DNA from: Candidatus Xianfuyuplasma coldseepsis
GTDB taxonomy: Bacteria > Bacillota_I > Bacilli_A > Izemoplasmatales > Izemoplasmataceae
Direction of reading: 5' to 3'
DNA length: 64,000 nucleotides
NCBI RefSeq assembly: GCF_014023125.1
Contig: NZ_CP048914.1
Coordinates: 248,001 to 312,000, forward strand
Under the pieces are notes generated by a model that saw only the letters and a list, made by a program, of their open reading frames with translations, ran no database searches and was not told where the DNA came from. Below are positions 13,258 through 51,509 of this stretch, in pieces; position 1 is the stretch's first letter, and each line of letters begins with the position of its first letter. The position numbers and the translations under genes were made by a program.

Positions 13258-13353
13258 TATCGTAATTGATTGACAACTCTTATTCCAATAATTTCTAAAT
13301 AGCTCCGGTAGATATATATTTATGAATGGTTCGTTATTTTCAAATTATTTCGT

Positions 13354-13381
13354 TTGCAATTCTCTGTTTTTATGGTATATT
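13354..13381 (+). promoter_or_regulatory. Promoter of the tRNA-Thr gene
   Basis: TTGCAA (13354-13359), a 16-base spacer, then TATATT (13376-13381), about 19 bases upstream of the mature tRNA 5' end. Confidence 0.55.
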
Positions 13382-13399
13382 ATTTATAGACTTTTTAAG

Positions 13400-13475
13400 G
13401 CCGAAATAGCTCAGTCGGTAGAGCAACTGTCTCGTAATCAGTAGGTCGTAGGTTCGATTCCTATTTTCGGCACCA
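13400..13475 (+). tRNA. tRNA-Thr (anticodon CGU)
   Basis: A complete 76-base cloverleaf. The acceptor GCCGAAA pairs with TTTCGGC and is followed by A and an encoded CCA. The D arm is GCTC/GAGC, and the T arm is GTAGG-TTCGATT-CCTAT. The anticodon loop is CTCGTAA, giving anticodon CGU (13433-13435) for threonine ACG codons. The anticodon stem has one T-T mismatch next to the loop. It is one of only three plus-strand genes in the window. Confidence 0.95.
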
Positions 13476-21814: not shown

Positions 21815-21844
21815 AAAAGCAAAATGATTGTTCATTTTGCTTTT
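21815..21844 (-). terminator. Terminator at the end of the beta-glucan operon
   Basis: AAAAGCAAAATGA-TTGT-TCATTTTGCTTTT is a perfect 13-base stem followed on the minus strand by T-rich sequence. It overlaps the end of the cytoplasmic GH16 gene and closes the long operon before tkt. Confidence 0.85.
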
Positions 21845-26734: not shown

Positions 26735-27729
26735 TGTAAAAACTCCTTCATATTTATAATGCCATCGTCTACCAATTGTCGAAAATTCCAACCGCTGTAT
26801 TGTCGTTCTATTTTATAACTCCAAAACACATGTCCACTGCATTCTTTCATCGCATGAAGTTGTGCGGATGCATATTGTGCTAACATGTTTTTCTCTTGGA
26901 TTTGTGTATGTTGTGATAAGCGAATACCCAAACTCCATTCACCGACGATGACGGGTACATATTGTTCGACATTTTGTAATAATGTAGTCCGCTTTTGGGC
27001 ATATTCACAATGTTGTTCAATGCTATATGAAAAGAGTCGTTCATCAAAACTTTGATACATATGCGTATCCAAAATCACATTGGAAAATTCTTTCGTTGTA
27101 AAGAACTCTTCCCATGCATTCATTCGAAAGGAATCATGCATCACTATATAGCGTTGTTGATTCACTGTGCGTAATCGTTGATAGGCTCGTATATAAAAAT
27201 CTTGAACGATGTCTAGTGGAATTTTTTTTAATGGTTCATTTAACAACTGAATGCTGTGAAAATGGGATACATTGTTATAGCGTTTCATAATCGATTCCAA
27301 GACATCAATGGTTGTATCAATATTGGCCGGATCTTTATGCCACGTAAAGACATGTTGAATCCCCCCATTGTCAAATCCATTTTGACAACCTGGTGCGGTA
27401 TGCAAGTCCAACATAAAGTCTAATCCAACATCATCGATCATCTCGAGTGCTTGATCAATTGCATCGACGGTTTTATGATATACACCCTCACCAAACAACC
27501 ACCATGGGATTGGAATACGAACAAGGTTCACACCCTGTGCTTTCAACCATTCAATATCGGATCTAGTAATCCAGGTTTGGTGATGGTGATCTAATAAGTC
27601 ATGGGCGTTGTCTTGCTCCATAAAACACGTCTCATCATTACAACCCTCTTTTGCGTTTTGAAATAATGAGGGTGTCATCCAATGTTCTAAGACAAACCAT
27701 CCGCCAAGATTGACAGCACGTAACTTCAT
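26731..27729 (-). CDS. GH5-family exo-beta-1,3-glucanase-like enzyme, cytoplasmic
   Basis: A 332-residue GH5 protein. Its start, RAVNLGGWFVLEHWMTPSLF, closely follows the pattern of fungal exo-beta-1,3-glucanases. The acid/base Glu is in QLLNEPLKK (about residue 166) and the nucleophile Glu in VIVGEWSLG (about residue 265). No signal peptide is present. It fits between GH30 and GH3 in the operon, with 4-base overlaps on both sides. Activity on beta-1,3-linked gluco-oligosaccharides is expected from subfamily resemblance, not proven. Confidence 0.85.
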   Translation of the reverse strand: MKLRAVNLGGWFVLEHWMTPSLFQNAKEGCNDETCFMEQDNAHDLLDHHHQTWITRSDIEWLKAQGVNLVRIPIPWWLFGEGVYHKTVDAIDQALEMIDDVGLDFMLDLHTAPGCQNGFDNGGIQHVFTWHKDPANIDTTIDVLESIMKRYNNVSHFHSIQLLNEPLKKIPLDIVQDFYIRAYQRLRTVNQQRYIVMHDSFRMNAWEEFFTTKEFSNVILDTHMYQSFDERLFSYSIEQHCEYAQKRTTLLQNVEQYVPVIVGEWSLGIRLSQHTQIQEKNMLAQYASAQLHAMKECSGHVFWSYKIERQYSGWNFRQLVDDGIINMKEFLQ

Positions 27730-29039
27730 GAGAAAACAACCGTAATAATCGAATGCGGTTCCATTGCAATATCAATCGTTTCATCGTGTAATTGTAGTGC
27801 GGTTGTAATCTTCTTATCGGTTTCGTTTAGGATAACTGCAGCAATCGTTCCATCGACATTTTTAAATGCGGTTACTTGTAGCTTTGGATGGGTATTATTA
27901 CATCCAATACGAACCGCATCAGGACGAATATACTTACTGAAATGGCCAATGTAATAATAACTGCTTTGATGGACTAATTGTTCCGGAAACACATCGACGA
28001 TAATTGGCGAATCACATAAATTATTTACGTGGTTTGGTCCACCCGTATTATCCAAGAACAAGTTCCAATCAATGTATCCCTGACAGAAATTATTAAAGTC
28101 ACCAATCATATTCCGCGCATAGCGTTCGCCGGTTTCAAAAGTATCCCAATGAACGCCCTCTTCTTGACAACCTTCGGTAAATAGTAATCCCTTATCTGGG
28201 AAGAGTTCATGGACTTTTCCAACATTCTCAAAGGCTTCACTACCATACCAATGGAATCCTGTCCCCCAGACGTATTTTGCGGCATCTTCATCCTCTAGGA
28301 CAATCGATGCACGTTCAACCATAATATCGCGATTATGGTCCCAAATCAATATATTGACATCCTTGGCACTACTGTTTTCAAACGTCGGCCCAAGATGATT
28401 TTTGACAAAATCACGTTCCTCTTCAGCGGTGTAAACACAAGAATCCCACCGTTGTTTTGCAGCTGGTTCATTTTGAACCGTCACGCCCCACATCGTTAAT
28501 CCATGAGCTCGGTACGATTCAATGAACTTGACAAAATAATCGGCCCATAATTGGTAGTATTCCGGCAAAAGTTTTCCGCCTTGAATCATCGATTTATTGT
28601 CTTTCATAAACGCCGGTGGACTCCACGGACTTCCGAGTAGTTTAATCTCTTTAGCATATTTTTGTGCATCTTTGATTAACGGTATCACCGCTTGTTCATC
28701 TCGAGAGATATCAAATGTTTCTAAGGTGGTATCTCCCTCATCGATATAGGTATAGCTGTTTAAACTAAAGTCACAGGAATGAATACTGACGCGACCAAGA
28801 GTATACCCCAGTCCATCAACAGGATCAAAGTATGCTTTGATTGCTTCTTCCCGTTTTGCTTCGTTAATCCGTAATAAATTATACGCACTACTTTCCGTAA
28901 ACGCACCACCAAACCCTAACATCGTCTGATAGGTTGTTTGGGGATTGAGTATAATTGTTGGTTTTGCAGTTGTTGTAGAAATGGATTCTTGTTCAAGTCG
29001 CTTGTTTGACGTCGACTCGGTTCGAATGATATATGACAT
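27726..29039 (-). CDS. GH30-family beta-glucanase (candidate beta-1,6-glucanase)
   Basis: A 437-residue GH30 enzyme with acid/base Glu in GVTVQNEPAAK and nucleophile Glu in LFTEGCQEEG, plus the family segment DWNLFLDNTGGPNHVNN. GH30 members of this type act as glucosylceramidases, beta-glucosidases or endo-beta-1,6-glucanases. In a locus full of beta-1,3-glucan enzymes, cutting the beta-1,6 branches of laminarin is the best-fitting role. There is no signal peptide. The ATG at 29039 has GGAGG 6 bases upstream; reading frame upstream of it crosses a hairpin and is not coding. Confidence 0.88.
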   Translation of the reverse strand: MSYIIRTESTSNKRLEQESISTTTAKPTIILNPQTTYQTMLGFGGAFTESSAYNLLRINEAKREEAIKAYFDPVDGLGYTLGRVSIHSCDFSLNSYTYIDEGDTTLETFDISRDEQAVIPLIKDAQKYAKEIKLLGSPWSPPAFMKDNKSMIQGGKLLPEYYQLWADYFVKFIESYRAHGLTMWGVTVQNEPAAKQRWDSCVYTAEEERDFVKNHLGPTFENSSAKDVNILIWDHNRDIMVERASIVLEDEDAAKYVWGTGFHWYGSEAFENVGKVHELFPDKGLLFTEGCQEEGVHWDTFETGERYARNMIGDFNNFCQGYIDWNLFLDNTGGPNHVNNLCDSPIIVDVFPEQLVHQSSYYYIGHFSKYIRPDAVRIGCNNTHPKLQVTAFKNVDGTIAAVILNETDKKITTALQLHDETIDIAMEPHSIITVVFS

Positions 29040-29060: not shown

Positions 29061-29090
29061 GAAAACACCACGACGAATCGTGGTGTTTTC
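29061..29090. other. Perfect 13-base hairpin between permease and GH30 genes
   Basis: GAAAACACCACGA (29061-29073), loop CGAA, then TCGTGGTGTTTTC (29078-29090). On the minus transcript only about four T follow before C residues, so it is a poor terminator. Its place between transporter genes and cytosolic enzyme genes suggests a transcript-processing or stability element that sets different expression levels. A leaky terminator is the alternative. Confidence 0.7.
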
Positions 29091-29136: not shown

Positions 29137-30063
29137 TTATTGTCCGGTGATACCGACCGATTCAATACCTTCAACAAATTGACGTTGGGTAAAGATATAG
29201 ATCAGTAACAATGGGGCAATGGAAAGAATCGTTGCCGCTGATTCAAAGGCTTCACTGATGCGATCATTACCACCAGCAGACTGACCAAACAAGGTTTGGA
29301 ACTGTCCGAGTTTACCGGTTAATAAATCGACACCGTCGGCTAAGAATATATTGGTGACAAAATCTTCATTCCAGTTCCATACAAAGCTGAACAAGAAGAC
29401 GACAAACATAATCGCAAGCGAAATCTTAACGGTAATGTGCCAGAAGATTTGCATCGTATTGGCTCCATCAATGTTCGCTGCTTCATATAAGTCTTTTGGT
29501 ATTTTTTGGAAGAAACTCTGGAAGATGATAATGAGAATCGCGGAATTGATACCTTGACCAAAGATCAACATGATCATTTGTGGTAGTAAACTACCATAAA
29601 ATGACATTCCAAGGACATCTCCTAAGGTTGAAAAAATGATTTGGTGTGCCGTGGTTAATAACTGAACAGGCAGGATGAACGACAAGATTAACATCGTAAA
29701 TAAGAGTCGTTTTCCACGGAAATTGTACCGTGCAAATGCATATCCTGTCAGTGCCGACACACTGGTTTGGACAATAGCAAACAAACCCGATACCCAAATT
29801 GAGTTAATCAGGGCATTCCAGTAATCCATAACCAGGATGGCAACCTTAAAGTTGTTGACACTAAAGTTGCTTGGTACCCACAAAATATCTGGTGCAACAA
29901 TGTCTTCAACCGTCATAAACGATTGACTTAACATACTTAAAATCGGGAACAAGAACACGAAACTGAGGGCGATCAAGACAATGTATAAGAACACCAGCCC
30001 AGCGCGATCATTAATCTTCTTCGTGAAGGCTTTGGATTGTAATAATTGTTGTACTTTATTCAT
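29137..30063 (-). CDS. Sugar ABC transporter permease, MalG type (importer B)
   Basis: A 308-residue inner-membrane permease of the carbohydrate-uptake class. It has six predicted helices and the cytoplasmic EAA loop YEAANIDGANTMQIFWHITVK, which contacts the ATPase. It overlaps the MalF-type partner by 8 bases. No ATPase gene is adjacent; MsmK at 16.8 kb is the likely motor. The cargo is inferred to be beta-gluco-oligosaccharides. Confidence 0.92.
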   Translation of the reverse strand: MNKVQQLLQSKAFTKKINDRAGLVFLYIVLIALSFVFLFPILSMLSQSFMTVEDIVAPDILWVPSNFSVNNFKVAILVMDYWNALINSIWVSGLFAIVQTSVSALTGYAFARYNFRGKRLLFTMLILSFILPVQLLTTAHQIIFSTLGDVLGMSFYGSLLPQMIMLIFGQGINSAILIIIFQSFFQKIPKDLYEAANIDGANTMQIFWHITVKISLAIMFVVFLFSFVWNWNEDFVTNIFLADGVDLLTGKLGQFQTLFGQSAGGNDRISEAFESAATILSIAPLLLIYIFTQRQFVEGIESVGITGQ

Positions 30064-31102
30064 TACTCATCGCCTCCTGTTGTTTTTGAAGCTCGTATAG
30101 TTCTTGTGTTCGAATATACCGTTTTTTCTCAATCACAATGTCATCTTTCTCACGGAGTAGTAACAATAACACCCCGATGAATAAGAAGGTCACAACCGTA
30201 TACAAGAAGGCATAGGTAGCTGCATTTCCTAAATTAGTTGCGGTCATCATGATCTGATCTTGCAGTAATAAGAATAACGGGTTGATGTTATAAATACCAA
30301 CTTGAACGACACTGAAGATTCCAATGACAAGGGCGGTTGATTTAATGTTAGGTATAATAATCAACCATAAGATTTGCCAGGAGTTTCCACCGTCAATCCG
30401 AGCGGCTTCGTAGATTCCCCGATTGATTTTTTGAAGACCGTTGATATAGAGCACAATCGGTACTCCAGTAAACCAGAGAATGACAATTAACACATTAAAC
30501 ATGCTTTCCAGTCCGTTTGCCATGAAGGGGATGTATTGTTCAATCATACTAAAGACAAAGACCCCGTCAACATTTAACAGTGTATTCTCTCCGGTTGATG
30601 TGTTGACTATATTTGTCAATGTCGCATTGCTTAACAGGACCACTGGCAAGAAGAACATCACGCGGAAGACGACACGGAACTGAAAGTCGTTGTTGAGTAA
30701 TAAAGCAATTAGGAACGAAATAATAATAATCACCGGAATGTAGGTTACGAGTAACCCCACATATCCAAACAAGGCTTGATAGAAATCGGGATTGGTAAAG
30801 GCAAACAAGAAATTATCAATACCAATAAACTCAAAATCAAATCCTTGAGGTGTTTTTAACACATCATGTACACTCATGTATACAATCATTAAGACCGGTA
30901 ATACGACAAATATTACAAGTCCGATTAACCACGGTGTTAATAAGAAATACGGCGTTTTCTTATTTTCACGTTCTTGTTTTTGGGGACGGTTTTGTTTGCG
31001 ATACTCGCGTTTAAACGTATAGTTTTTCACGACGGATGTATTGTTAAACCATTTCCAAGCTTCCTTCAATGCCGAACGTACTTTTTCCATAAATTCTTTC
31101 AT
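30056..31102 (-). CDS. Sugar ABC transporter permease, MalF type (importer B)
   Basis: A 348-residue permease with a basic, hydrophilic N-terminus (about 50 residues) followed by membrane helices and the EAA loop YEAARIDGGNSWQILWLIIIP. The C-terminal tail after the last helix is long and charged. It pairs with the downstream MalG-type gene. Both lie directly after the DUF5696-like gene, so that surface protein may belong to this importer. Confidence 0.92.
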   Translation of the reverse strand: MKEFMEKVRSALKEAWKWFNNTSVVKNYTFKREYRKQNRPQKQERENKKTPYFLLTPWLIGLVIFVVLPVLMIVYMSVHDVLKTPQGFDFEFIGIDNFLFAFTNPDFYQALFGYVGLLVTYIPVIIIISFLIALLLNNDFQFRVVFRVMFFLPVVLLSNATLTNIVNTSTGENTLLNVDGVFVFSMIEQYIPFMANGLESMFNVLIVILWFTGVPIVLYINGLQKINRGIYEAARIDGGNSWQILWLIIIPNIKSTALVIGIFSVVQVGIYNINPLFLLLQDQIMMTATNLGNAATYAFLYTVVTFLFIGVLLLLLREKDDIVIEKKRYIRTQELYELQKQQEAMSNE

Positions 31103-31114: not shown

Positions 31115-33493
31115 CTACTCGGACACAACAAGATAACTTGTTGCCTCGACTACGTTGCCGTTCACGGTAACGTCATCCTCCGTATAGTTGATAATGATTT
31201 GAATATCGTTGGTGTATTGATTTACAATCACGCCGTTTTCAACCACCAATCGATTGAGCCACGTTTCACCAAGTACAGGTGATAACGCGTCATTTGCTTG
31301 TTGATAGATTTGGACAATTAAATCTTCATAATCACGGAACTGGGTTGAGATGTACTCATTGGAGTTGGTACTTCCAAGAACATAGGATGGTTGCTGTGTT
31401 AGGACAAAGGATGGATATACATTGTAATCAATCATCCGTAATACATCTTTTTCCGAGCTAAAACTAAAGTTGGAATATGGAGCATACAGTTCCACTGTCC
31501 CTGCAATCACCATTTGTAAGAATGGTACCGTATCTGACGCAATAATAAACTGCGTACTATAGACTGGAATATTCAAATACCGTTCAATTGAATCGAGTAA
31601 GAACACATGTGGTTGATCACCAGCAATGGTGATATCCGTGGATAACTCCAATAGTGTTTCGTGATACTTGTTTTTCACATCGGTAATCGTTAAATCATCG
31701 TAGGAATCTCCATAGAGCAGATTCGACAATCCATAGACGGTGATACTATCTCCACCGAGGTCTAGTACTTCTTCTGTGTGATCATCTAACCATGAAACTG
31801 CATTGTTTGGTTTGGCTAGATATTCGGTCATTACGGTTTGACTATTGGCTAAATTGATTTCATAGTATTTTCCGTTATTGTGTTTTACAGCATCCCCTAG
31901 TAGGGACATCATATCTTCATTAATCGTCAAGAAATCTTGACTTAGCGATATATCATATCCCAAAGAAGCTGCGGTAACTAGTAATTCTTCGAACGTCGAT
32001 TTGGACCCAATCGAGTTGGTGAAGTCCATATCTTTTGGCGAGGTTAAAATCATCCCGCCATCTTGCCATCCAAGTAGTCCTCCGTTGAGGTTCATGACGT
32101 TGCGCTCGTGAAGCGTTTCAATCATTGCCGCAACATCATCCATTGTTGTTGCGACTTGTTCTTCATAGCCAAAGATTCCCGTTTTACTGTCGGCCATTAA
32201 GAAGTCGACACGAATCGGGATATCGGTTAAGGACGAGTTCAACGGTGTTAAAATTCCAGCTTCTAGTAGATATTCACGGTAGGCCATCGCCATCCCGACA
32301 TAACTCGCTGGTTTTCCATCAGTTGATCCATCACCCTGTAAAAACTCATAGCGTAACACCACATCAAAATGTTGCCGATCATCCGGCAGACGGTCATACC
32401 CATCGCCACGGTCATTATAGACTTGACGATATACATTGCTATAAACAAATGTACTGTAGGTTTGAACATACCCTAAGGTGCTGGATAGTGGTACAGAGAC
32501 AACTTGCATGTACTCATCACCCTCTATCGCATAAGCGACAAAAGCTGCTTCGGTATCATCCCCGTACGACATCCCAAATACCGGTAGGGTTGCGGTTTTG
32601 GCTTCGAGATACTCCAGTGCATCTTTGGTATGACTATAGTAACTGGTTAAATTATCACCATACACGTCACCGACATACTCATCGACATCAATATTGGTAT
32701 CCTCATAACGGATTAACGCCCCCGATCCATCAGGGATAAACGAGTATCCAGGATTGATCGGATTCGGTTCAGCAAAATCGTCGTTGTATTCGAGTTCGAC
32801 ATCATCAAAGGGGATGTAGTATCCTCCCTGAGCACCCATGAATGGGGTTATCGAAATGTTCAGTAATTTCTCAGGCTCTACGACATCAATTTCATGGTCG
32901 CGGATTTCGTAGGTAACGCCTTCTTCATCGAAATAGAGATGAACGCGCACTTCGATATCATAGCGTCCATAATCCACATCCAAGAACCAATGCGAATCAT
33001 CATCCCCACGTGAGAGAGAACTACGATAATCATCCGAGGCGCTGTACAGACGTCTCGTTCGTGCGCCAATTTCATCGAGGTATTCCACAACTAAGAAACT
33101 ATTGACATAATCCCGTGCAGCGCTCGATAAATCTTGAATCGGTACACAGGTATCTTCAACATCTTGTGGAGTATACCCTCCGGCATCAATCATATCCATA
33201 CAAGTGTCTTCAAGATCATCATTCATCGGGACATCCATACCGGTTTTATAGGTAAAATCATTTGCTTTGTCATAAATGGCGAGGACATCTCGTTCATCCC
33301 GGAAATAGAAAGTGAAACGGTCATTATCATGAAGCAATTCCATATCTTCGGGTTCACTAATGGTATAGACAATTTCATCCGGTGCTTCTTTGGTGTCACG
33401 CGAGTTTGGTATGTATTCAGCAAAGACAACGGCCGTTGTTACAGATACAACCGCTAAAACTAACACGATATGCTTTATCAGTGATTTATACAA
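31115..33493 (-). CDS. DUF5696-like surface protein, membrane-anchored
   Basis: A 792-residue protein starting with TTG at 33493, chosen because GGGAGGTG lies upstream and no ATG fits; the start overlaps the NHL/Yip1 gene stop by 8 bases. An N-terminal hydrophobic helix (about residues 5-27) is followed by a large extracellular part. The segment FIPDGSGALIRYED (about residues 255-268) is the hallmark I associate with DUF5696. The second half, with HERNVMNLNGGLLGWQDGG, resembles a glycosidase-like barrel. The biochemical function is unknown. It sits between two ABC permease pairs with a solute-binding protein, so a role in capturing or presenting beta-glucan is likely. Confidence 0.7.
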   Translation of the reverse strand: MYKSLIKHIVLVLAVVSVTTAVVFAEYIPNSRDTKEAPDEIVYTISEPEDMELLHDNDRFTFYFRDERDVLAIYDKANDFTYKTGMDVPMNDDLEDTCMDMIDAGGYTPQDVEDTCVPIQDLSSAARDYVNSFLVVEYLDEIGARTRRLYSASDDYRSSLSRGDDDSHWFLDVDYGRYDIEVRVHLYFDEEGVTYEIRDHEIDVVEPEKLLNISITPFMGAQGGYYIPFDDVELEYNDDFAEPNPINPGYSFIPDGSGALIRYEDTNIDVDEYVGDVYGDNLTSYYSHTKDALEYLEAKTATLPVFGMSYGDDTEAAFVAYAIEGDEYMQVVSVPLSSTLGYVQTYSTFVYSNVYRQVYNDRGDGYDRLPDDRQHFDVVLRYEFLQGDGSTDGKPASYVGMAMAYREYLLEAGILTPLNSSLTDIPIRVDFLMADSKTGIFGYEEQVATTMDDVAAMIETLHERNVMNLNGGLLGWQDGGMILTSPKDMDFTNSIGSKSTFEELLVTAASLGYDISLSQDFLTINEDMMSLLGDAVKHNNGKYYEINLANSQTVMTEYLAKPNNAVSWLDDHTEEVLDLGGDSITVYGLSNLLYGDSYDDLTITDVKNKYHETLLELSTDITIAGDQPHVFLLDSIERYLNIPVYSTQFIIASDTVPFLQMVIAGTVELYAPYSNFSFSSEKDVLRMIDYNVYPSFVLTQQPSYVLGSTNSNEYISTQFRDYEDLIVQIYQQANDALSPVLGETWLNRLVVENGVIVNQYTNDIQIIINYTEDDVTVNGNVVEATSYLVVSE

Positions 33494-35528
33494 TGCCAAA
33501 CACCTCCCGGAAGACCACAACAATAAACTCGACAATGCGTGAGAACATCAATTGAATAAAGATGATTGTTATCGCGACAATGACCATTAATAAAACGGAT
33601 AAAATCAAGCTTTTTGTTGTATCTCTAAACTCGTAATTTTGAATCTCATTGACACCGACAAAGAGTAAGATAAAGGTGTAGAGGTATCCGATTGTGAGAA
33701 CAAACATCACAAAGAAACTCTCATCCAATGTTAGAACATGCGTCAACAAGGTACTTAGGAATAATCCAATTAATAGTGGTAAGAATGAATAGGTTGTTTG
33801 AATATAAATCTTCTTCAAACCACTTTCTCCCTGGTTGATCGATGTGATTAGGTAATTCGATATAATGTAAATCAATACAATACTGAAAAACCCTAAGATA
33901 ATCGCATAGATATTTAAATCTTCAATGTCGGTTAATTGATATAAAAATCCTTTAAATGCGGAGTTGAGTAGGAAGCCTACAAAGGTTAATAGCAACATCG
34001 TCGTCGCAACCACGAGATTTCCTTTCCGCTCTTTCTTAATTTCATAGTAGGCATTTACGGGATGCCTTGCTACGGTAAATACGTACAAGAACTCTTCGAC
34101 CCAATAATGGGTTTTAATCTCTTTGATTTTCTCCTCAAGCGGTGCGAGATAGCGCCATTTGCGGTTGGTACGTTTCACCACTTGATAAATCACAAACGTA
34201 CTAACAAGAAGAACTAAGACAATGCCTAAGTTTTCTTGAATCCAATTGTTCCGGATTTCCCAATAACTTTCGGAGTAGAACTCTCGGTTTTCAGCGAGTT
34301 CAAAGTGTAGTGCCGCAAGATCGAATTCTTGTTGGTACAAGTACGATTTTGCCAACTGGTTGTTCCCCAGTTTTGACATTTGATTGAGCATCAACACTTC
34401 TTGCCATTGTTCGGCCGCTTCATCGTAACGTCCTTCTTCAAACAGATTCAATCCGTTGTAAATACCAAGGGCGTATTCGGTAGGGTTATACGATAAGAGA
34501 TAGGTTTTCTCACTATCCACGGTGTAAATATCACCACTGCTGTTAACGGCAATCGATTCCAACGTGTCGTACAAGCCAATGACGTCGTCATTACTGGTTC
34601 CACCAAAACTAAAGATGAAATCACCGTATTTACTGTAGATATCAATATACCCTTCCGATTCGGACGAGGTAAATATGATCCCACTCTTGTTGACGTATAA
34701 ATCCGTCATCCCGTTACTACGGGTATAAATACCACCAAATAAATTACTACCGCTTGTCGAGTGTTTCTTGACAAGATCATTGAGCACTTCACTGGAGGTT
34801 GTGGAATATAAAATTCCTTTGTCATCGACAAACACATTGCTAAATGTTGCCGGTAATTTGACACTGTTTAAATCTTTATCGACTAAGTCATAGAAGAATT
34901 TTTGAACCAACTCTTCGATGGAATAATAAACTTGGTTGGTAGCGAAATATCCAAGAAACTCTCCGGTTTTGGATAATTGTAAAATCCCTGAGGATTCCCC
35001 TTCGGCAACAACATAAATGTTCCCGGTATTATCCACCGCTAGTTTTTTCGGACGGAACTCTGCAGTCGTATATGCCCGTGCTTCAGGACGATCAATCTCA
35101 TAAGCGAAATCAAGATTATCATCAAAGACAAAGATGCGTTGTGCATTTGCATCGGCGACATATAGCCACCCATCTGCGGTAATCGAGATTCCCGTTGGCG
35201 ACTGGAAGTCCGGGTGGGTTAACTCATTGATGATTAATCCACTGTCCGGATCATACATTACAATTCGGGCGGTATCGTCATCCCCTTGGGGATCGTAGTC
35301 AGCGATGTACAATATATCATTCGCATCAAAGAATAGGTCCTGCGGTGCATACAGTCCTAAATCGACACGATACTGATCGGGCAAGTAGGCATTTTGGGTA
35401 ATGATCAGTTCATTGTCCGAAGATAGGGCGTACGTGAACGTTGTGTTCGATGATGCATCGACTTCTGTCGTTTGGTGCAGTATCATGATAATCGCAAGGA
35501 GAATCATGATTGTTAGTTTTCGTTTCAT
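33486..35528 (-). CDS. Secreted NHL-propeller / TPR-like / Yip1 membrane protein
   Basis: A 680-residue multidomain protein. A signal peptide covers residues 1-25. About six NHL-type propeller blades follow (about 40-340; repeats such as GISITADGWLYVADANAQ and LAVDNTGNIYVVAEG). A short TPR-like helical part covers 350-425 (YDEAAEQWQEV), then one membrane helix (about 430-450), and a C-terminal Yip1-type domain with four or five helices (about 490-680). The propeller therefore faces outward. It lies among transporter genes of the glucan operon; the function is unknown, possibly sensing or scaffolding the importer. Confidence 0.75.
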   Translation of the reverse strand: MKRKLTIMILLAIIMILHQTTEVDASSNTTFTYALSSDNELIITQNAYLPDQYRVDLGLYAPQDLFFDANDILYIADYDPQGDDDTARIVMYDPDSGLIINELTHPDFQSPTGISITADGWLYVADANAQRIFVFDDNLDFAYEIDRPEARAYTTAEFRPKKLAVDNTGNIYVVAEGESSGILQLSKTGEFLGYFATNQVYYSIEELVQKFFYDLVDKDLNSVKLPATFSNVFVDDKGILYSTTSSEVLNDLVKKHSTSGSNLFGGIYTRSNGMTDLYVNKSGIIFTSSESEGYIDIYSKYGDFIFSFGGTSNDDVIGLYDTLESIAVNSSGDIYTVDSEKTYLLSYNPTEYALGIYNGLNLFEEGRYDEAAEQWQEVLMLNQMSKLGNNQLAKSYLYQQEFDLAALHFELAENREFYSESYWEIRNNWIQENLGIVLVLLVSTFVIYQVVKRTNRKWRYLAPLEEKIKEIKTHYWVEEFLYVFTVARHPVNAYYEIKKERKGNLVVATTMLLLTFVGFLLNSAFKGFLYQLTDIEDLNIYAIILGFFSIVLIYIISNYLITSINQGESGLKKIYIQTTYSFLPLLIGLFLSTLLTHVLTLDESFFVMFVLTIGYLYTFILLFVGVNEIQNYEFRDTTKSLILSVLLMVIVAITIIFIQLMFSRIVEFIVVVFREVFGIV

Positions 35529-35538
35529 GACTTCCTCC

Positions 35539-36411
35539 TTACTTCACACCAGAATGACTCATGGTATCCATGACGTTACTTTGCATGACGATGAATATCA
35601 CAAGGTTCGGTATAAACATAATTAATCCCGCAGCAGCAGCTAGACCTTGTCCAGCAACACTAAATTCTACGGTACTGGTTAACGTCGACATGTAGAAAGC
35701 AAACGTCTTCTTCACGTCGGTATTAATATAAAATTGTGAGGTAATTAAGTTCGACCACGTCGCTTGGAAGGTTAAAATCGCAACCGTTGCGAGCGCTGGT
35801 TTGGTGAGTGGTACAACAATTTTGCGAATGATGTGCAAATCCGTCGCTCCATCAATCCGGGCGGCTTCAATAATTTCATTCGGTAATTGATCGATAAATT
35901 GCTTGATTAAGAACACTCCTACTGGCATTGCCAGGAGTGGCAAAATATGAGCGATATACGTATCTAGAATATTCGCGTTTACAATGACTAAGAATGTCGG
36001 AATCGCAACGGCGATTGGTACAAACATCAAGGCTGCTTGGTTGATTTTAAAGATGGTATCTCGCCCTTTGAAGTGTTTCTTTGAAAGAGCATACCCAGCC
36101 AGCATTGTCATTGTCAAGTTCAAGGTAATGGCGACGGAAGCGACCACCACGGAGTTAAACAGATAGACCGTTAGCGGAATTCCGGTTTCCGTAGCCGTAC
36201 GTACCAACATTTCCAAGTTTCGGAGAGTTGGTTTTTGGACCAAGAAACGCGGTGGGAATAACATTAATTCGTCCAGTGGTTTTAGCGCTTGCGAGAAGAT
36301 GTACAAGATTGGTAACATCATCACCGCAGCAATTGGGATTAGGATGAGATAAAATTTGAGTTGCGAACGATGGAATCGTTTCGGATTGATTTGGGTTCCT
36401 TGTAGACTCAT
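35539..36411 (-). CDS. Sugar ABC transporter permease, MalG type (importer A)
   Basis: A 290-residue permease with six predicted helices and the EAA loop IEAARIDGATDLHIIRKIVVP. A strong AGGAGGTGA site precedes the ATG. It forms a pair with the MalF-type gene 11 bases upstream and follows two solute-binding protein genes. Confidence 0.92.
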   Translation of the reverse strand: MSLQGTQINPKRFHRSQLKFYLILIPIAAVMMLPILYIFSQALKPLDELMLFPPRFLVQKPTLRNLEMLVRTATETGIPLTVYLFNSVVVASVAITLNLTMTMLAGYALSKKHFKGRDTIFKINQAALMFVPIAVAIPTFLVIVNANILDTYIAHILPLLAMPVGVFLIKQFIDQLPNEIIEAARIDGATDLHIIRKIVVPLTKPALATVAILTFQATWSNLITSQFYINTDVKKTFAFYMSTLTSTVEFSVAGQGLAAAAGLIMFIPNLVIFIVMQSNVMDTMSHSGVK

Positions 36412-36422
36412 ACGTTCACCTC

Positions 36423-37361
36423 CTAATCATCCGATCCGAACAGTAGATGTCCGAATCGACTAAACGCATAGACGACAATAAATAACACGACACTGAGGGC
36501 GGAGGCATAGCCCATTTCATACCGCAAGAAACCGTAGTCGGCAACGTGGTTAACAATCAAAGAACCACTGTATTGCGGTGTCGGGTTAACCCCGGATAAT
36601 AGGACCCCAATTTCCCCCATGTTGAACGCACCAACGACAGCCATAACGGCCCCAAAGAGCATCTGTGGTTTCATTGATGGAATCGTGATGTAGAAGATCT
36701 CTTGGAAGCGGTTTTTGATGCCGTCAATTCGCCCGGCTTCATAGAGCTCGGGATTGACGTTCAAAATACCAGCAAGCATCGCTAAGAATCCAATTCCCAT
36801 ACTACTCCAGAGGGAAACAATAATCATGATGTTTAATAAATACTCCGGAGATTGTAAAAATTGAATCGGTGCTTCAATAAAGTCGTTATCGAGTAAGAAC
36901 GCATTGATGTATCCACTTTCACTACCGTTGAATAGCGAGCGCCAAAGAATCGTGACTAAAATAGCTCCAACCATCGATGGTGCGTACAGTAGTAAGGACA
37001 AGTATTTTCGTGGAGTTGCTTGGATTTGCGATAACATCCAGGCCATGAAGAAGGATAAAGCAAATCCTCCCGGCCCCACAATCAATGCATATTTTAATGT
37101 ATTGGGTATAATGTTTTTAACAAATTGTTCATCGCCAGTAACCATAAAGACATAGTTCTGCATCCCGGCAAACTCCGGTGGGTTAATCGCATCATAATAG
37201 GTAAATGATAACGAAAAGGCAATGAGGATTGGGATGATGATAAATCCGGCAAAGATAAAGACATACGGAAGAATCAGTAACCACGAAGACAATCGGTCTT
37301 TGGCGCGATCACTGAGGTGTAGCCACTTGGCTAAACGATCGATTAATTTGACGTTACTCAT
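36423..37361 (-). CDS. Sugar ABC transporter permease, MalF type (importer A)
   Basis: A 312-residue permease with EAA loop YEAGRIDGIKNRFQEIFYITIP, in which Gly replaces the third Ala-region residue. Two ATGs sit side by side (37364 and 37361); 37361 has the better distance to AGGTG. The start overlaps the end of the large solute-binding protein gene by 8 bases, a sign that the two are produced together. Confidence 0.9.
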   Translation of the reverse strand: MSNVKLIDRLAKWLHLSDRAKDRLSSWLLILPYVFIFAGFIIIPILIAFSLSFTYYDAINPPEFAGMQNYVFMVTGDEQFVKNIIPNTLKYALIVGPGGFALSFFMAWMLSQIQATPRKYLSLLLYAPSMVGAILVTILWRSLFNGSESGYINAFLLDNDFIEAPIQFLQSPEYLLNIMIIVSLWSSMGIGFLAMLAGILNVNPELYEAGRIDGIKNRFQEIFYITIPSMKPQMLFGAVMAVVGAFNMGEIGVLLSGVNPTPQYSGSLIVNHVADYGFLRYEMGYASALSVVLFIVVYAFSRFGHLLFGSDD

Positions 37362-40317
37362 CATTCTCACCTGCCGCTTCATCCATCCGTTCTTGAATCC
37401 AGTAGACATCGGCGATGATGTAATCTTGCACTAACACACCATCTTCGAGATAACCGAATTCCGTCATTTTCCGACGAATCTCACGATTCATATCGGTAAC
37501 GACTTCATCAATGGCAACCCGGGCATTGGTATTTTCAAACACCATTTTGTTCCAGATATCACTGATTCCTCGTTCGACGAGGTATTGTCCTGGTGTCCGC
37601 GGTACGTCGCGTAGCCAAGTGATTTGTTCTAAGATAATTTGTTTGTCATCCGCAGGGATTGGAAGTTGTTCAATCGCTTGTTGGTTCGCGGATAACCATA
37701 GGAATGTTGGTCCATAGGTGGACAACAAGGTTTGGGCAAATTCAATTTGGGTATCGGTTGATTGCCACCATTTAAAGAATTCCCAGGTTTCCTCTTTGTA
37801 CTGTGAATCATTAAAGATGATTCCACCCATACCATTCCCAACGTACCAACGATTTAACTCGCCCGTCTCTTCATCGATGTATCCCGGGGTAGGTGCTAAT
37901 TCCCATTTCCCTTGTATCTCTGGAGCCGAGGTTTGAATCGTCACGTAGTCATTGAACGAAATGATTCCAATCGGTAAGGATCCATAACGGAAGTCATTGT
38001 AGAACGATGGTACCTGTGTTGGCACACTGTAGGTGGTAAATAAATCCCCTAAGAATTGCAGTGCTTCGACACTGGCTTGATCGTCCAGCTCTACTTCGAG
38101 TCCATTTGGAGCGTAAATCGTTCCACCATATTGATAGATTAACGGCACGGTTTGATAGAACCATTTGGTTGACGCACCACCGGATGTTGGATAATAGAAA
38201 TTCATGTCGTATCGTTGTAATTGGGGCAAGATTCCTAAGACATCGTCCCAGGTATCCGGTACCGCTATGTTGAGTGATTCAAAAATGTCTTCACGATACA
38301 TAATCGCATTGAAATTCAGTGTTTCCGGCATCGCATATACCCCTTCATTAAAGGTATATGGAACCATCGATCCGGCGACAAATTTATCACTGGTGTAACT
38401 CCAGAAATCATCAAACTCAGTCAAATCGTAGAGCGCACCGCGAATCGCCAAGTTATACGGTACATAGGACGGCAATCCGAGGGCCGCATCCGGTGTCGTA
38501 TCACCGGCACTTGCAAGCACGAGTTTGTCGACGACTGGCATAACACTAAAGTCAACTTGAATACCGGTTTCGGTAGTGAACTCACTGTCAACTAATTTCT
38601 GCATTGCATCGACATAGGTCGTTGCCCGACCGACCCAAATTTGAACGGTTTCTTTATCTTCACTATAGGTATAGTATTTATTCGACGTAATGGATAAGTA
38701 GAAATCACTGATCATATGGCCAACAATTTGGAAGACATTGGCATCCAAACGTTCGGGCGGTTCATTCGCCAAAATGACTTTATTAAGCGCCATGTGTTGT
38801 TCTTCAATAAAGGTAATTGTATCGCCAAGATATTGGTTTACCGAGCCACTACCACTATATAAATCTTCAATATAGAGAGGTAATTCATCGGGTTTTTCAC
38901 TGACGTCTTCAATCGTTCGTAAGGCCATGTTTAAATAGGACAACTCACTCGATAAGTCCCGTTCACTAGAATACTGAGACAGCATAATGATGTTCCATTT
39001 TAACATCGTTGCATAGGCATCTAAGTACTCCTCGGTTTCCGGAAGGATCTTCGTTAGTTCCCAGGTTCGTGAATCATCGTCGGTGTTTCCACTGACTTTA
39101 CGAATATCAAGGGCAAATTGATTGATATGATCAATGATGATTTGTAAATCATTGATTCGTGCACTAAGTGGTGCAATATCGGTGGTAAATGTAATTGTGT
39201 TACTACCGGCGTCTAGGTAAAATTTCAAGGGTTCCCCATCTTGTTCAAACGTGTCTGTTGTCCACTGATTATCGGTTGCTTCAAATTCATAGGACATCAC
39301 TTCTTGATAGGGAATTACACCGTTGATTCGAACCGTACGAAAGACATTGAAATCCGATGCATCGGTTTCATAGTATAACGACAATTCGTAGAGTCCAGCT
39401 GTTGGAGCTACGACATTGTACGTAATCGATTGTCCCGATTGATCCCAGGATTCAACGATATTTAGTCGTTTGTATTCATTGTCAAACGGTTTGGTGTCCG
39501 GCGATTGGTTATTATCCAACCGAATAAACGAGGAGTTCTTACGGGTGTAACTGATGGCATCAATCATCAGTACATCATCCACTTCTTGTCCACCGACAGT
39601 ACTGAGATATTCGGTATATGTCGGAATCTCGGTTGGGGCAATCAGGATAACGTCACCTAAATAAAAACTTTCTGTGCTGTCACTACCGAAGGTAATCGTA
39701 TGGGTCCCGGTGTCGAAATAAAAGAGTAAGCCTTCTTCGGTATAATAGCGATTATCGTGTAACTCGGTTTGATGCCATCCCTCAACGACAATTTGATTGG
39801 GGATGAATTCATCACCGTAACGATCGGTGTCGAAATCTTTGGTTTCGTCTTCCCATATAATGGGGACATTGATTAATGAACTCTCATAAAATGGAATCTC
39901 ATCGTTAATCGTTACTTGCAATAAGTAATCATTCAACGTGTCACCATTGAGATAATAGTCGATGCCAATGCGGTAATATCCCGCTTCACTAACACTGACT
40001 TCATAGGTTGCAGTTTGGGTTAATGTTACATCGGTAACGACATCTCCGTCGTACACAATGTCGTTAACGAGCACGCCGTCGCTGTAGGTCGTTTCGTAGT
40101 TGTCCAATGTATAGTCAAGAGCTACGTCATCCATCAGGTTGACGTAGCTATTTAACTCTACAGTTTCAGCAAGTACATTATATGCGGCTTGATAGGACGC
40201 GCGATTGACGTCTTGTTCAAATTCGTCAAGACGACTGTTTTTTAGTCCCGTTGCCGCAAACACAATGACTGCAACTATGATTAGTGGTGGCAAGAATTTA
40301 AGTAAGCGTTGTTTCAT
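37354..40317 (-). CDS. Membrane-anchored solute-binding protein with two N-terminal CBM-like domains
   Basis: A 987-residue protein. A membrane helix at residues 5-27 has no lipobox Cys. Two beta-sandwich, carbohydrate-module-like domains follow (about 80-235 and 265-400), each with the shared pattern of a Y/L-S-V/L strand, AGYYRIGIDYYL or AGLYELSLYYE, and then a short R/T-I-N-G/D strand. A helical linker comes next, and the C-terminal 430 residues resemble a sugar-binding protein of ABC importers (VPDTWDDVLGILPQL, KEETWEFFKWW). The ATG at 40317 is 7 bases from AAGGAG. Fusion of glycan-binding modules to a transport receptor suggests capture of polymeric or long glucan chains. Cargo is inferred. 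Confidence 0.82.
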   Translation of the reverse strand: MKQRLLKFLPPLIIVAVIVFAATGLKNSRLDEFEQDVNRASYQAAYNVLAETVELNSYVNLMDDVALDYTLDNYETTYSDGVLVNDIVYDGDVVTDVTLTQTATYEVSVSEAGYYRIGIDYYLNGDTLNDYLLQVTINDEIPFYESSLINVPIIWEDETKDFDTDRYGDEFIPNQIVVEGWHQTELHDNRYYTEEGLLFYFDTGTHTITFGSDSTESFYLGDVILIAPTEIPTYTEYLSTVGGQEVDDVLMIDAISYTRKNSSFIRLDNNQSPDTKPFDNEYKRLNIVESWDQSGQSITYNVVAPTAGLYELSLYYETDASDFNVFRTVRINGVIPYQEVMSYEFEATDNQWTTDTFEQDGEPLKFYLDAGSNTITFTTDIAPLSARINDLQIIIDHINQFALDIRKVSGNTDDDSRTWELTKILPETEEYLDAYATMLKWNIIMLSQYSSERDLSSELSYLNMALRTIEDVSEKPDELPLYIEDLYSGSGSVNQYLGDTITFIEEQHMALNKVILANEPPERLDANVFQIVGHMISDFYLSITSNKYYTYSEDKETVQIWVGRATTYVDAMQKLVDSEFTTETGIQVDFSVMPVVDKLVLASAGDTTPDAALGLPSYVPYNLAIRGALYDLTEFDDFWSYTSDKFVAGSMVPYTFNEGVYAMPETLNFNAIMYREDIFESLNIAVPDTWDDVLGILPQLQRYDMNFYYPTSGGASTKWFYQTVPLIYQYGGTIYAPNGLEVELDDQASVEALQFLGDLFTTYSVPTQVPSFYNDFRYGSLPIGIISFNDYVTIQTSAPEIQGKWELAPTPGYIDEETGELNRWYVGNGMGGIIFNDSQYKEETWEFFKWWQSTDTQIEFAQTLLSTYGPTFLWLSANQQAIEQLPIPADDKQIILEQITWLRDVPRTPGQYLVERGISDIWNKMVFENTNARVAIDEVVTDMNREIRRKMTEFGYLEDGVLVQDYIIADVYWIQERMDEAAGENDE

Positions 40318-40349: not shown

Positions 40350-41939
40350 TTATTCACTAAATCGTGCGTCATCTGTATCGTAGCCATAATAGTCTACGAG
40401 CGCATTTTCAATTTCAGTCCAAGCAAGTGCTAAACGATCGTTAAATAGATCGGTCCAGCTGTCCAATTTACTAAAGATTAAATCTTGCCATTCTGGCGCA
40501 CTGATCGGGGTTTCATCGACATCGTAGAAGAACCAGAATTCTTCAAAGATCATTTGTCGGGTTTCTGTGGTTTCATCGGTAAAGAACCATGGGTATACTT
40601 TATCACTGATGGCTTTTACTTCACCACTACGAATGATATCTAGTACCGCGTTAAATCCTTCTTTATCTTCATAGTATCCATTACTTCCGATTTGATACCA
40701 ATATGCAAGTTGTTCGTTAAATGCGTCACCAACGGTTACTGGTAAACTTGCATCTGCTGCACCAGTTAATACAGTTAAGTTACCATCGGTATCGATTTCA
40801 CCATATTCAACTTCAGCGCGTGCTTTCCATGCACGAGTATCGGCAATCATGAAGGATGCGAATTCATACGCGATATCCAATTTTAATTGTTCTTCTTCAT
40901 TACACTCTGGATTTCCGTCATCGTTACAATAGTTGTATACACCAAGTGGATCGGTAACGGTAGAGATGGTATTTCCACGACCGTTATAATCTGGATATGG
41001 ATAGACATCAAATCCTTCTGGTCCTGGTAAGGTTCCTTCTTGAATCGCAAAGGCATCTAAGTACCATGCATCTTCCGGATACACCGTAACAACACCGGCA
41101 CTAAACGCATTGATTGACCAGGATTGATACACACTTTGATAATCTTCTTCATGGCTATAGAATTGGTAGTCGTTCCATACTTCCATACCATCGCTTAAGA
41201 AATCTTTGACTTCTTGCGTATTTAAATCGACTTCACCGAAGTCATAGAGTGCATCATAGATAAACATTTGTTTCATCCATGTACTTGGTAATGCACCGAG
41301 TCCACTGTAGCCGTCATCGAGTCCTTCACCATTGGTTACCAAATCGGTGAACTCATCAAATGTCCAGTCTGGGGATACTTCATCTAAGAACTCGTCTGTG
41401 ATGATGCCCGGATTTATAAACATTCCCGATGGAATAAAATATCCCGGCAATGCTGCTTGCATTCCATAGTAGTTGGCTTGCTCTAATAATCCTGGGTTTA
41501 AGGTTTGATAGAGATCATCATCTTCATAGATCGACAAATCTGCCAATACCCCTTGTTTTAATAGGGCAACCGTATCACTGATTGCAAATACGGCTGGATA
41601 CACATCGTATTTATCCTTGTAGTTTGCCAACGTTTGATCCCACACAACACCACCATCATCAGGTCCTGCAGGTTTCCCGTAATAGTTGATTTTGACATTG
41701 GGATAAATCTCATTAAATGCCTTTGCTGTTGCAAAAATAGATGCTACTTTTTTACTGGTTAAATCTTCTGGTAAAAAGTTTTGTTGACCAATGTTTAGAT
41801 AACGGATGTCGTTACCCGCCCAGGTCACTAAATCAATTTCACCAGCTACTTCGGTGTCCAAACCGTCGTCTCCGCCTTTACATGCAGAAAGTCCAATTAT
41901 AGACAATGCTACCATTGCTGCTACTAATAACTTTTTCAT
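40350..41939 (-). CDS. Solute-binding lipoprotein of a sugar ABC importer
   Basis: A 529-residue lipoprotein with signal MKKLLVAAMVALSIIGLSAC (lipobox LSAC, Cys 20). The mature part matches the extracellular solute-binding family 1 pattern, with AKAFNEIYPNVKINYYG near the N-terminus and a C-terminal helical lobe rich in Trp, a common feature of sugar-binding sites. It lies directly upstream of the larger binding protein and the importer A permeases. With two binding proteins and two permease pairs, this one may serve either importer. Confidence 0.9.
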   Translation of the reverse strand: MKKLLVAAMVALSIIGLSACKGGDDGLDTEVAGEIDLVTWAGNDIRYLNIGQQNFLPEDLTSKKVASIFATAKAFNEIYPNVKINYYGKPAGPDDGGVVWDQTLANYKDKYDVYPAVFAISDTVALLKQGVLADLSIYEDDDLYQTLNPGLLEQANYYGMQAALPGYFIPSGMFINPGIITDEFLDEVSPDWTFDEFTDLVTNGEGLDDGYSGLGALPSTWMKQMFIYDALYDFGEVDLNTQEVKDFLSDGMEVWNDYQFYSHEEDYQSVYQSWSINAFSAGVVTVYPEDAWYLDAFAIQEGTLPGPEGFDVYPYPDYNGRGNTISTVTDPLGVYNYCNDDGNPECNEEEQLKLDIAYEFASFMIADTRAWKARAEVEYGEIDTDGNLTVLTGAADASLPVTVGDAFNEQLAYWYQIGSNGYYEDKEGFNAVLDIIRSGEVKAISDKVYPWFFTDETTETRQMIFEEFWFFYDVDETPISAPEWQDLIFSKLDSWTDLFNDRLALAWTEIENALVDYYGYDTDDARFSE

Positions 41940-41948: not shown

Positions 41949-44900
41949 CTATTGTTTTTTCCAATATATCGTAATGGTGTTGATGTCACCGTTTCGAACT
42001 TGTTGAGCAAGATTCCCTTGAATCTTCGGTTGATTGAGTTGGACTCCATCTACCAGTATTTTGTCAATCATGATATTGTCATCATACGTCGCGAGTCCGG
42101 TCTCGTTGACGTAGGTAACAGTAACTTGATTGAGCAGTCGGAACTGAACTTGATGCTGGTCATCAAACCACTCTTGTTGTAATACCGGTTTCAAATTTAA
42201 TGTTAGTTTGTTATCGTCCATGATGAACGGATGTGGTCCCATCATCATATACGACCAGATCGACAACATTTCCGCCGTTGAACCCGATAAGCGAGCGACA
42301 AACCCTTGTCCGTGCAAGGCGGGATCGGGGTTATTGCTTGTCGCGATGAACGAGGAGTTCTCCAACGTAGACCGGCCATAGACTTCCGGATCCATAAAAC
42401 AGACCAAATTGGTTTCTATCTCTTGATAAAACTCATCATATAGTCCACTTTTTAACAATCCATACAAATACTTATACGTCATATGCAGGAAGTTGCTTTC
42501 GCGTTCCAACCAGCCTTTGCTAAAAGCTTTGATGCGACCGATTTCAAACGATGCATCGGTTAAATCATCACTGGTTTTATACATCTTCAAGGTGGCATCA
42601 TACACACCACTTTGTTTAATGGACTGAACCATCTGTTTATTAAATGTTGTATCGGTACTTATTTTTAGCAATCGTGCCGGTGCTTCTAAAAATGCCGGTA
42701 ACGATTGTAGTTCAAACGCGTTCACATGAACTTTCGGCATCCCATAATGCGTGTAAACAATACCCTGTTCATTTTGTACAACTTCAAATTCTGTAGCTTC
42801 ATACGTTAGGAATGTCGGTACAATCTCCGCATCCAGTGCTTTAATTTGTTCGACTGCGTTCTCCAATTTCTGAACGATTCGATGAACAAATGATGTGATG
42901 TCTTGACTGTGAACTGTTACCGTTTCAGAAGCACCAAAGCGCGTCTCTTTCATGTACGCATCGCGAATATCATTCGTTGCATGCCAGTAGTCCATCGGTG
43001 ATTCATCTAGTACTTTTTCAATCGCCTTCATAAATGGAACAAATTCAGCGATGAGAGGAATCTCTTGTTGTGGTTGATCCTCTAAAACTGATTGCAAGAA
43101 TCGCGCAACTCGTAAAATTTCAAATGTTTCACTGGTACCTGAACCAAAGAGTCCAGGAAGACCATTCATCGCATCATTCCAGCCTGGTTTATCAGCTTCC
43201 ATTTCAATCCCTAGCCCATAGGGATCAAGTTGCGAAATTTTATTCACGACAAGCATAAATAGTTTTCCAAATAGGTTTGTTTCAACGGGATGCCCGTGTT
43301 GATTCTTCATCCAGTTGGTGCCTTCTTGCAATTCTAAGCGATGAACTTTTTCTTTGTCGTAATGGTTGATCGCGCCATATTGACGAACTGCCCCATCACT
43401 GCGTTGCACCATTTTTTCCGTTTTTGGATAGACGGTTGCTGGTGATAAGAAAAAGCGATAATCTTGTCGCTTGAAGACCAATTCTTCCAAGCGATCAGGA
43501 TAGACATTTATCGTGTTTTCAACCAAATCTAAAATGTAGGTAAAGTGATCAATCCAATAGCCTTCGCCAAAGGCGGATTGATAATGGACTTCCACATCGC
43601 TCATAATGTGTTCAAACAGTGTTGCATCATCCATATCGAGTTCAATATCATTCATCCGAAGCGCATTCATCACATCACCAGGACTGAACAATCCTGACAG
43701 GATCGGAACCATCAAATCCGCGTGTTCCTTAAATACGTCTTTGCACAATCTATTGACATCACCGGTATAGGTGAATTTAAGTCCCATAACCGATAAAGGG
43801 TTATAACCATCGTGTTGGATTAAACTCGCGAACATGTGGACATTCGCATCGTATACCCTCGGTTCAAAGTACACATCATTGCGTCGATTTTGACAAACAT
43901 CACGGAAGTTGGCATTTCCTTGGGAGTAAAACTCTGGTTCTATCACAAAGAAATTATAATCCCGTTCCAAATCGCCATGTTTCCGTGAATATAGATGATA
44001 GGTATAGTCCTTGTTTTTTGATTCCAAGATGAATGGATATCCACCACGAAGGACATTGTCCAATTGATTTTGCTTGACGTATTCATCAAAGATTGGAAAT
44101 GCAGATTTTGTGGCGACCGGCGTTAACAATTCATCAATGACTTGTTTGTTTTCTTCTTGCTTTCGATCAAAATAGGATGAATCAATTGTCGAGAGTAGTT
44201 GTTCGACAAGACAATCGGTTTTCGCCGCACCAATCAAGGTATCAATCCGCACTGTTTCTCCTGCGCTTAATGTTCCTTGATAAAGGGTAAAACCACATGG
44301 AAACTTGTTTTGATCAACTTGTGGTGAAGCCATGATGTCACGGACACTACTTTGAATAAATCCATAGGGTGTCGTAAAGGACGTATCATGTTCATACAGC
44401 AACGCCTTATCAATCAACGGAGCTTGTTGGATACCATTGACGTAACTAACGTAAAAACTTCCCTCTTCGACTTGTTTCACTTCCGCAGTGTCACCCGTTG
44501 ATGCTTTGACTTTTAAGTATGCGTATTGATCCTCAAGGTGTTGTACTTCGACAAAACTTCGGAACAGGTTGGACATCTCTTTATATACCGCATTGGATAT
44601 TCCAAGTGGAATCAATTGATTGACACCATCAGCAATTTCAAATGCACGAGTGGTGTCGGATAAATCCGTAAATGTCACACGGCGGATTAATCCTGCTACT
44701 CCTTCATTGGGTAGGGTAAAGTAGCGAACGGTCATTTGAAACTGATGCGTCTGATTCGTTTCAACAATTTCCACGGCTTCCTTGGTGATGTTCATCACTC
44801 TATTTACGGACACATCATCATTATGACCAAACACTTCAATCACAGTGCCATCGAGTTTGACAAAGGTACGAAAGCCAATGCGATCCGTATTTTGATATGC

Positions 44901-45107: not shown

Positions 45108-45125
45108 AGGCTGCCTCAATTCTTG

Positions 45126-46305: not shown

Positions 46306-46357
46306 GTTTTCCTCCATTTTTTATATTGGTAATTTAGACTATTCTAAATTTGTGCCC

Positions 46358-51487: not shown

Positions 51488-51509
51488 TATTATCATCCTT
51501 TACAATACT

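Follow-up and report, generated by a model that had tools for sequence, protein, structure and literature searches.

The window, i.e., the whole stretch of 64,000 nucleotides of Candidatus Xianfuyuplasma coldseepsis that was analyzed, contains a cassette of eight genes, which are all located on the minus strand in the order SBP1, SBP2, permease A, permease B, NHL-TPR-Yip1, DUF5696, permease C and permease D. An earlier note on this DNA had placed three large surface proteins of 987, 680 and 792 residues between positions 31115 and 40317, and these coordinates and lengths match the sequence to the base. The cassette genes, the hairpin downstream of them and an ATPase gene located elsewhere in the window are the following:

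40350..41939, minus strand: SBP1, divergent solute-binding lipoprotein with the lipobox LSAC (similarity to SBP1 of other copies)
37354..40317, minus strand: SBP2, solute-binding protein, 987 aa (Pfam, AlphaFold2, Foldseek, profile search against the PDB, topology)
36423..37361, minus strand: permease A, MalF/UgpA-like, EAA loop EAGRIDG (Pfam/NCBIfam)
35539..36411, minus strand: permease B, MalG/UgpE-like, EAA loop EAARIDG (Pfam/NCBIfam)
33486..35528, minus strand: NHL-TPR-Yip1 membrane protein, 680 aa (Pfam, topology)
31115..33493, minus strand: DUF5696 protein, 792 aa, TTG start (Pfam, AlphaFold2, Foldseek, conservation)
30056..31102, minus strand: permease C, MalF-like (Pfam/NCBIfam)
29137..30063, minus strand: permease D, MalG-like (Pfam/NCBIfam)
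29061..29090, minus strand: perfect hairpin of 13 bp downstream of permease D and ahead of GH30, putative terminator or attenuator
16828..17925, minus strand: MalK/MsmX/UgpC-type ATPase, the sole one in the genome (single OB_MalK match genome-wide)

The gene run of the cassette starts with a GH161 gene, which is separated from SBP1 by 9 bp. From GH161 (45119) to permease D, the intergenic gaps range from -8 to +32 bases. SBP2 and permease A share eight bases (ATGAGTAA at 37361-37354), as do the NHL-TPR-Yip1 and DUF5696 genes (TTGTATAA at 33493-33486). Both overlaps had been read as binding two particular genes to each other. They are real, but permease C overlaps with permease D by eight bases likewise, and an overlap seen three times indicates ordinary operon packing. 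The gap between permease D and the GH30 gene is 97 bases long and contains the hairpin. A promoter scan of the locus gave a signal no higher than in shuffled sequence.

SBP2 carries an uncleaved transmembrane anchor without a lipobox at its N-terminus, according to topology prediction. In the predicted structure (AlphaFold2 pLDDT 84.9) two CBM35-like beta-sandwiches (residues ~102-226 and 285-379) are followed by a helical spacer (382-544) and the solute-binding domain (557-987). The SBP_bac_1 match of 61.5 bits is above the Pfam cut-off, and the CBM_35 match, with 17.8 bits, stays under its cut-off of 28. Across 48 homologues at E <= 1e-3, the CBM_35 model matches 6 and Golvesin_C 19. The label "CBM-fused" is nevertheless fair, because the predicted structure shows two beta-sandwich domains, for which sugar binding is putative. 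The solute-binding domain matches Lin1841 (PDB 5ysb) with 102 bits in the profile search against the PDB, and its nearest solved relatives are binders of beta-1,2-gluco-oligosaccharides and other sugars. SBP1 is the variable partner of the cassette, and a Pfam search with the SBP1 of this locus gave no match.

The engine of the cassette is a CUT1 ABC importer and thus of a known kind, with MalF/MalG-like heterodimers bearing EAA loops, an extracellular solute-binding protein and an ATPase of the MalK/MsmX type. Permeases A and B have six- and five-transmembrane profiles, respectively. Permease C stays just below the Pfam cut-off (22.3 against 26.4 bits) and matches the UgpA/GlcT models. All loci checked have EAA-type loops in A and B, and most have one in D; in permease C the motif is often a variant (EAS/EAA..EG), and 19 of 79 sequences were unmatched by the pattern used. 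In the third cassette of the genome, C and D are fused to one protein of 630 residues (L040:2824-4716). An ATPase gene was looked for in the cassette core and not found, and few ATPase genes lie nearby. Since the genome encodes a single MalK-type ATPase, this one is probably common to every permease pair.

The NHL-TPR-Yip1 protein consists of a signal, an NHL propeller, a TPR region, one transmembrane segment and a multi-transmembrane Yip1 domain, in this order. The Yip1 (50 bits) and NHL (47 bits) matches are both above the Pfam cut-offs.

The neighboring protein had been called DUF5696-like. Its assignment was borne out, and with a match of 448 bits, which is above the Pfam cut-off, it is a full-length DUF5696 protein rather than a mere relative. 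It has an N-terminal membrane anchor or signal and an ectodomain which was modeled with confidence (AlphaFold2 pLDDT 86.5, pTM 0.89) as a beta-sandwich, a TIM barrel and a C-terminal beta domain, i.e., a GH129/GH101-like three-domain fold. The top solved match in Foldseek is DagB of Zobellia (5opq, E 7e-33). GH129-type structures give TM scores (target) of 0.71-0.75, including NagBb (5wzn, 0.73), and GH101 and GH36 enzymes rank after DagB and NagBb. Independently, the sequence profile matches DagB (E 1.6e-4 to 2.5e-4) and weakly NagBb. Among 65 DUF5696 homologues the best-conserved features are the motif GYxFVPDGSGALI and a few Gly, Asn and Tyr residues. No assigned role had been noted for the three large proteins, in agreement with the finding that DUF5696 is mentioned in no open-access paper.

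The import of glycans, which had been proposed for the cassette, is supported by the enzymes encoded on both sides of it:

48830..51496, minus strand: GH94 laminaribiose phosphorylase (865 bits to 6ggy, Pfam)
47762..48769, minus strand: LacI-type regulator (sequence, HTH start MTTIYDIAKALGVAPSTVSKAL)
46358..47512, minus strand: GH16 laminarinase, extracellular lipoprotein (domain match, lipobox in the sequence)
45445..46317, minus strand: CBM4_9 lipoprotein (domain match)
41949..45119, minus strand: GH161 beta-1,3-oligoglucan phosphorylase, cytoplasmic (753 bits to the solved GH161 9qqk)
27726..29039, minus strand: GH30, cytoplasmic, ATG start MSYII (domain match)
26731..27729, minus strand: GH5, cytoplasmic, exo-beta-1,3-glucanase type (domain match)
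24788..26734, minus strand: GH3 lipoprotein (domain match, lipobox LSAC)
22572..24779, minus strand: GH3, cytoplasmic (domain match)
21843..22544, minus strand: GH16 without signal peptide, cytoplasmic endo-beta-1,3-glucanase (domain match, sequence)

This set of enzymes points to beta-1,3-glucan, in the form of sizeable oligosaccharides, as the cargo. The presence of an endo-acting GH16 in the cytoplasm suggests that chains beyond a few units enter the cell. Beside the laminaribiose phosphorylase gene, positions 51599-54505 of the window encode a lipoprotein with five tandem repeats of ~384 bp (128 residues), 84% matching, which is possibly a surface glycan-binding array. Other cassettes are accompanied by genes for glycoside hydrolases from a wide range of families, GH43, GH26, GH67, a fucosidase and a melibiase among them, and for LacI/AraC regulators and further solute-binding proteins. 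Next to a cassette copy in an alpha-glucan setting, two genes (L005:7327-11784 and 12054-13415) encode surface proteins with a hydrophobic segment and RKK at the C-terminus, which look like a pullulanase/amylase pair. On the Paenibacillus cellulosilyticus plasmid NZ_CP054609.1, the cassette lies beside four genes for LLM-class flavin oxidoreductases and one for a UgpC ATPase. As these flavin monooxygenases are found there and no obvious glycan enzymes, a non-polysaccharide cargo is suggested for this copy, and the range of cargoes may be wider than glycans.

The gene order SBP2-A-B-NHL-Yip1-DUF5696-C-D is fixed. The host genome itself encodes three DUF5696 proteins and three members of the Yip1 family, and all three pairs are adjacent and part of an ordered cassette with SBP1. 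The three cassettes adjoin different enzyme sets. Further genomes show this order, too, as far as their contigs extend. A survey of 195 genomes from the phylum of the host yielded 80 full or partial copies of DUF5696 in 30 genomes and 77 copies of NHL-Yip1 in 29 genomes. The earlier note would have been contradicted by genes that mostly occur apart in other genomes, and this is not what the survey gave, as all 77 NHL-Yip1 copies adjoin DUF5696. Conversely, 77 of the 80 DUF5696 copies adjoin NHL-Yip1, two lie at contig ends and one is a deletion fusion; 75 of the adjacencies were found directly, and the surrounding DNA resolved a further two copies of each family. Seeming DUF5696 singletons were thus resolved as full cassettes, contig ends or the deletion fusion. 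Weak DUF5696 matches (E 1e-3 to 1e-15, partial coverage) were rejected as other proteins, the one inspected (L136) being without a cassette.

In the fusion (L135:9904-10923, genome G042), the first 142 residues of GH161 are joined in frame to the last ~205 of DUF5696. The genes from SBP1 to NHL-Yip1 are missing and C, D and GH30 are retained, which could reflect a natural deletion or a misassembly.

Among named GTDB-species genomes, at least 581 loci encode a relative, and the best 80, which are closest to the query, were examined with flanks of 10 kb. The complete cassette in identical order is present at 68 of these 80 loci. Of the remaining 12, eleven are truncated at contig ends. The twelfth, L127, is a variant in which NHL-Yip1, DUF5696, C, D and SBP1 are present without SBP2, A and B upstream, their place being taken by a GH130-like gene and a gene for a secreted protein of 996 residues. 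In the same 80 loci, NHL and Yip1 are fused in 19 and encoded by two neighboring genes in 61. The listed loci belong to Paenibacillus, Cohnella, Lederbergia, Thermobacillus, Acholeplasma, Lachnospiraceae, other Clostridia and Treponema, and the cassette was also found on plasmids of Butyrivibrio and Paenibacillus. Taken together, the neighborhood surveys rule out chance co-location. They support the earlier note in so far as the three large surface proteins are inherited as a single unit with both permease pairs.

The cassette had also been likened to a counterpart of SusD-type proteins in a bacterium without an outer membrane, which implies that it belongs to such bacteria. For the host, an outer membrane was ruled out by the absence of Omp85 from the genome, yet the implied restriction does not hold, since the cassette is present in Treponema genomes. 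DUF5696 was found in 15 of 120 genomes of the family of Treponema, and three Treponema contigs carry the full cassette, so this occurrence is not explained by bin contamination alone.

The components of the cassette diverge to different degrees. Between the three copies of the genome, the identity is 49-59% for A/B, 25-40% for C/D, 34-35% for SBP2, 27-29% for NHL-Yip1, 26-27% for DUF5696 and 22-26% for SBP1. Across 44 loci, it amounts to 70% for A, 67% for B, 56% for the SBP2 binding domain, 53% for C, 52% for D, 40% for DUF5696 and 34% for SBP1. In the latter set, SBP2 tracks A/B (r 0.91-0.93) above C (r 0.85) and SBP1 tracks C (r 0.95) above A (r 0.86), with correlations that are inflated by common ancestry, from which the within-genome comparison of only three copies is free. 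The partial correlation of SBP1 with C is 0.82 given A and 0.42 the other way, and the divergence of DUF5696 and NHL tracks C. The sign of the correlation differences was kept in 300 of 300 draws when half of the 44 loci were sampled. Our reading is that a near-constant unit of A/B and SBP2 would be combined with an exchangeable unit of SBP1, C/D, DUF5696 and NHL.

Based on these data, it seems somewhat probable that the eight proteins form one surface-anchored two-transporter oligosaccharide importer with a scaffold of pseudo-glycosidase, propeller and Yip1 domain. The conserved module would consist of the CUT1-type permeases A/B and the membrane-anchored, CBM-bearing SBP2, and a substrate-tuned module of the CUT1-type permeases C/D and the lipoprotein SBP1. 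The NHL-TPR propeller on its multi-pass Yip1 domain and the DUF5696 ectodomain, which would have kept binding or docking and probably lost catalysis, may build the extracellular scaffold. This scaffold would sit chiefly on the substrate-tuned module, link both transporters and pass glycan chains to them, and the single MsmX/MalK-type ATPase would power all permease pairs. At the locus described here, the external GH16 would cut the beta-1,3-glucan polymer into sizeable chains, which after import would be finished by the cytoplasmic GH16, GH5, GH30, GH3, GH161 and laminaribiose phosphorylases. A bolder version, in which the propeller/Yip1 scaffold and the dead glycosidase lock two ABC transporters into a supercomplex that reels long glycans across the membrane of Firmicutes, Mollicutes and Spirochaetes, with A/B-SBP2 as constant engine and C/D-SBP1-DUF5696-NHL as exchangeable specificity unit, is only tentatively put forward and rather to be doubted. 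It counts against the two-transporter importer that the co-inheritance of an operon is no proof of physical contact.

Part of the same data could also be accommodated by SBP2-A/B and SBP1-C/D as conventional importers in their own right, which share an operon since they take up different products of one glycan, with NHL-Yip1 and DUF5696 as accessory glycan-binding surface proteins that form no physical link between them. Each permease pair apparently has its own solute-binding protein, both pairs have EAA-type loops, the modules diverge at different rates, and in L127 one of them occurs with NHL-Yip1 and DUF5696 in the absence of SBP2, A and B. However, NHL-Yip1-DUF5696 always lies between the two pairs in a near-invariant order in Bacilli, Clostridia, Mollicutes and Spirochaetes, and the sequence of A/B is nearly independent of the substrate, unlike that expected of a second substrate-specific importer, which makes this explanation unlikely. 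A role of A/B-SBP2 in sensing for, or regulating, the C/D importer, in place of transport, would agree with the conservation of this module whatever the neighboring enzymes are, but is highly improbable, as A and B retain transporter-type transmembrane profiles and EAA coupling loops, and neither a kinase nor a regulator is fused to them or constantly adjacent.

The scaffold role given to DUF5696 in the favored two-transporter importer has to be weighed against the reading that it is an active GH129/GH101-clan glycosidase, which works outside the cell and trims the glycan ahead of import. The full three-domain GH129-like fold would allow this, as would an Asp near the presumed nucleophile position of the barrel in 55% of the sequences. 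On the other hand, the 65 homologues have no conserved acid pair at barrel strands 4 and 5, with the catalytic positions mapped by strand counting and not by residue-level superposition, and the family is kept in cassettes for very different glycans. The Pfam family GH129 has no match in the protein of this locus, in which DUF5696 alone matches at E <= 0.1. A search with the GH129 Pfam model for a sequence to align, by which the catalytic residues could be placed, left even the controls without a match and has no bearing on this. An active enzyme is therefore quite improbable, and from the missing acid pair DUF5696 is probably a glycosidase fold without catalysis.

The cassette, with at least 581 loci and several copies per genome, occurs in bacteria of soil, rumen, gut and termite. 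If the proposed importer is confirmed, functions could be given to DUF5696 and to the bacterial NHL-Yip1 proteins, the substrate specificity would become predictable from the variable module, and glycan loci with two permease pairs, two binding proteins and no ATPase would be explained. The supercomplex, if true, would be a categorically new importer class. Apparently, the cassette was never described as a unit before: the NCBI annotation names its parts individually, no description was found in the open-access literature on Yip1/NHL with ABC transporters, and a paper on laminarin in Bacillus weihaiensis mentions neither Yip1 nor NHL.

Several known systems are close to the cassette or to parts of it. 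DUF5696 has its architecture in common with the GH129 and GH129-like enzymes NagBb (5wzn) and DagB (5opq), with faint sequence similarity. DagB comprises a beta-sandwich, a TIM barrel and an Ig-like domain with the catalytic residues Asp486 and Glu517 (PMC5698469). In contrast to both enzymes, to which it is ~10% identical, DUF5696 is membrane-anchored, has no conserved catalytic pair and, wherever an intact copy could be tested, lies within a transporter operon. The excerpted text on GH161/GH94 beta-1,3-glucan clusters reports for Acholeplasma and Paenibacillus that GH161 is neighbored by GH94, GH16, GH3 and ABC permease genes, with ATPase genes missing (PMC6484121). These enzymes match those of our locus, whereas the transporter is treated there as an ordinary ABC system, with NHL, Yip1 and DUF5696 unmentioned in the excerpts. 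In importers of the CUT1 type powered by MsmX/MalK, such as the beta-1,2-glucan system of Listeria with Lin1841 (5ysb), the permease folds, the EAA loops, the extracellular solute-binding protein and an ATPase encoded elsewhere are the same as in the cassette, which differs from them by two permease pairs, a membrane-anchored binding protein with beta-sandwiches, NHL-Yip1 and DUF5696.

AlgM1M2SS of Sphingomonas is an ABC importer to which the uptake of a long polysaccharide, alginate, is ascribed, but it has a single permease pair and other partners and belongs to a Gram-negative pit system. For large glycans, the best-known model of capture and import is SusCD of Bacteroidota. The cassette differs from it by a primary ABC pump and, in the present host, by the lack of an outer membrane, and a Pfam search of the eight proteins found no SusD-type or TonB-dependent domains. 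The resemblance lies in the proposed role alone, i.e., the surface capture of large glycans coupled to their import, and the cassette is a widespread, order-conserved candidate for a SusCD-like task in monoderms and Treponema.
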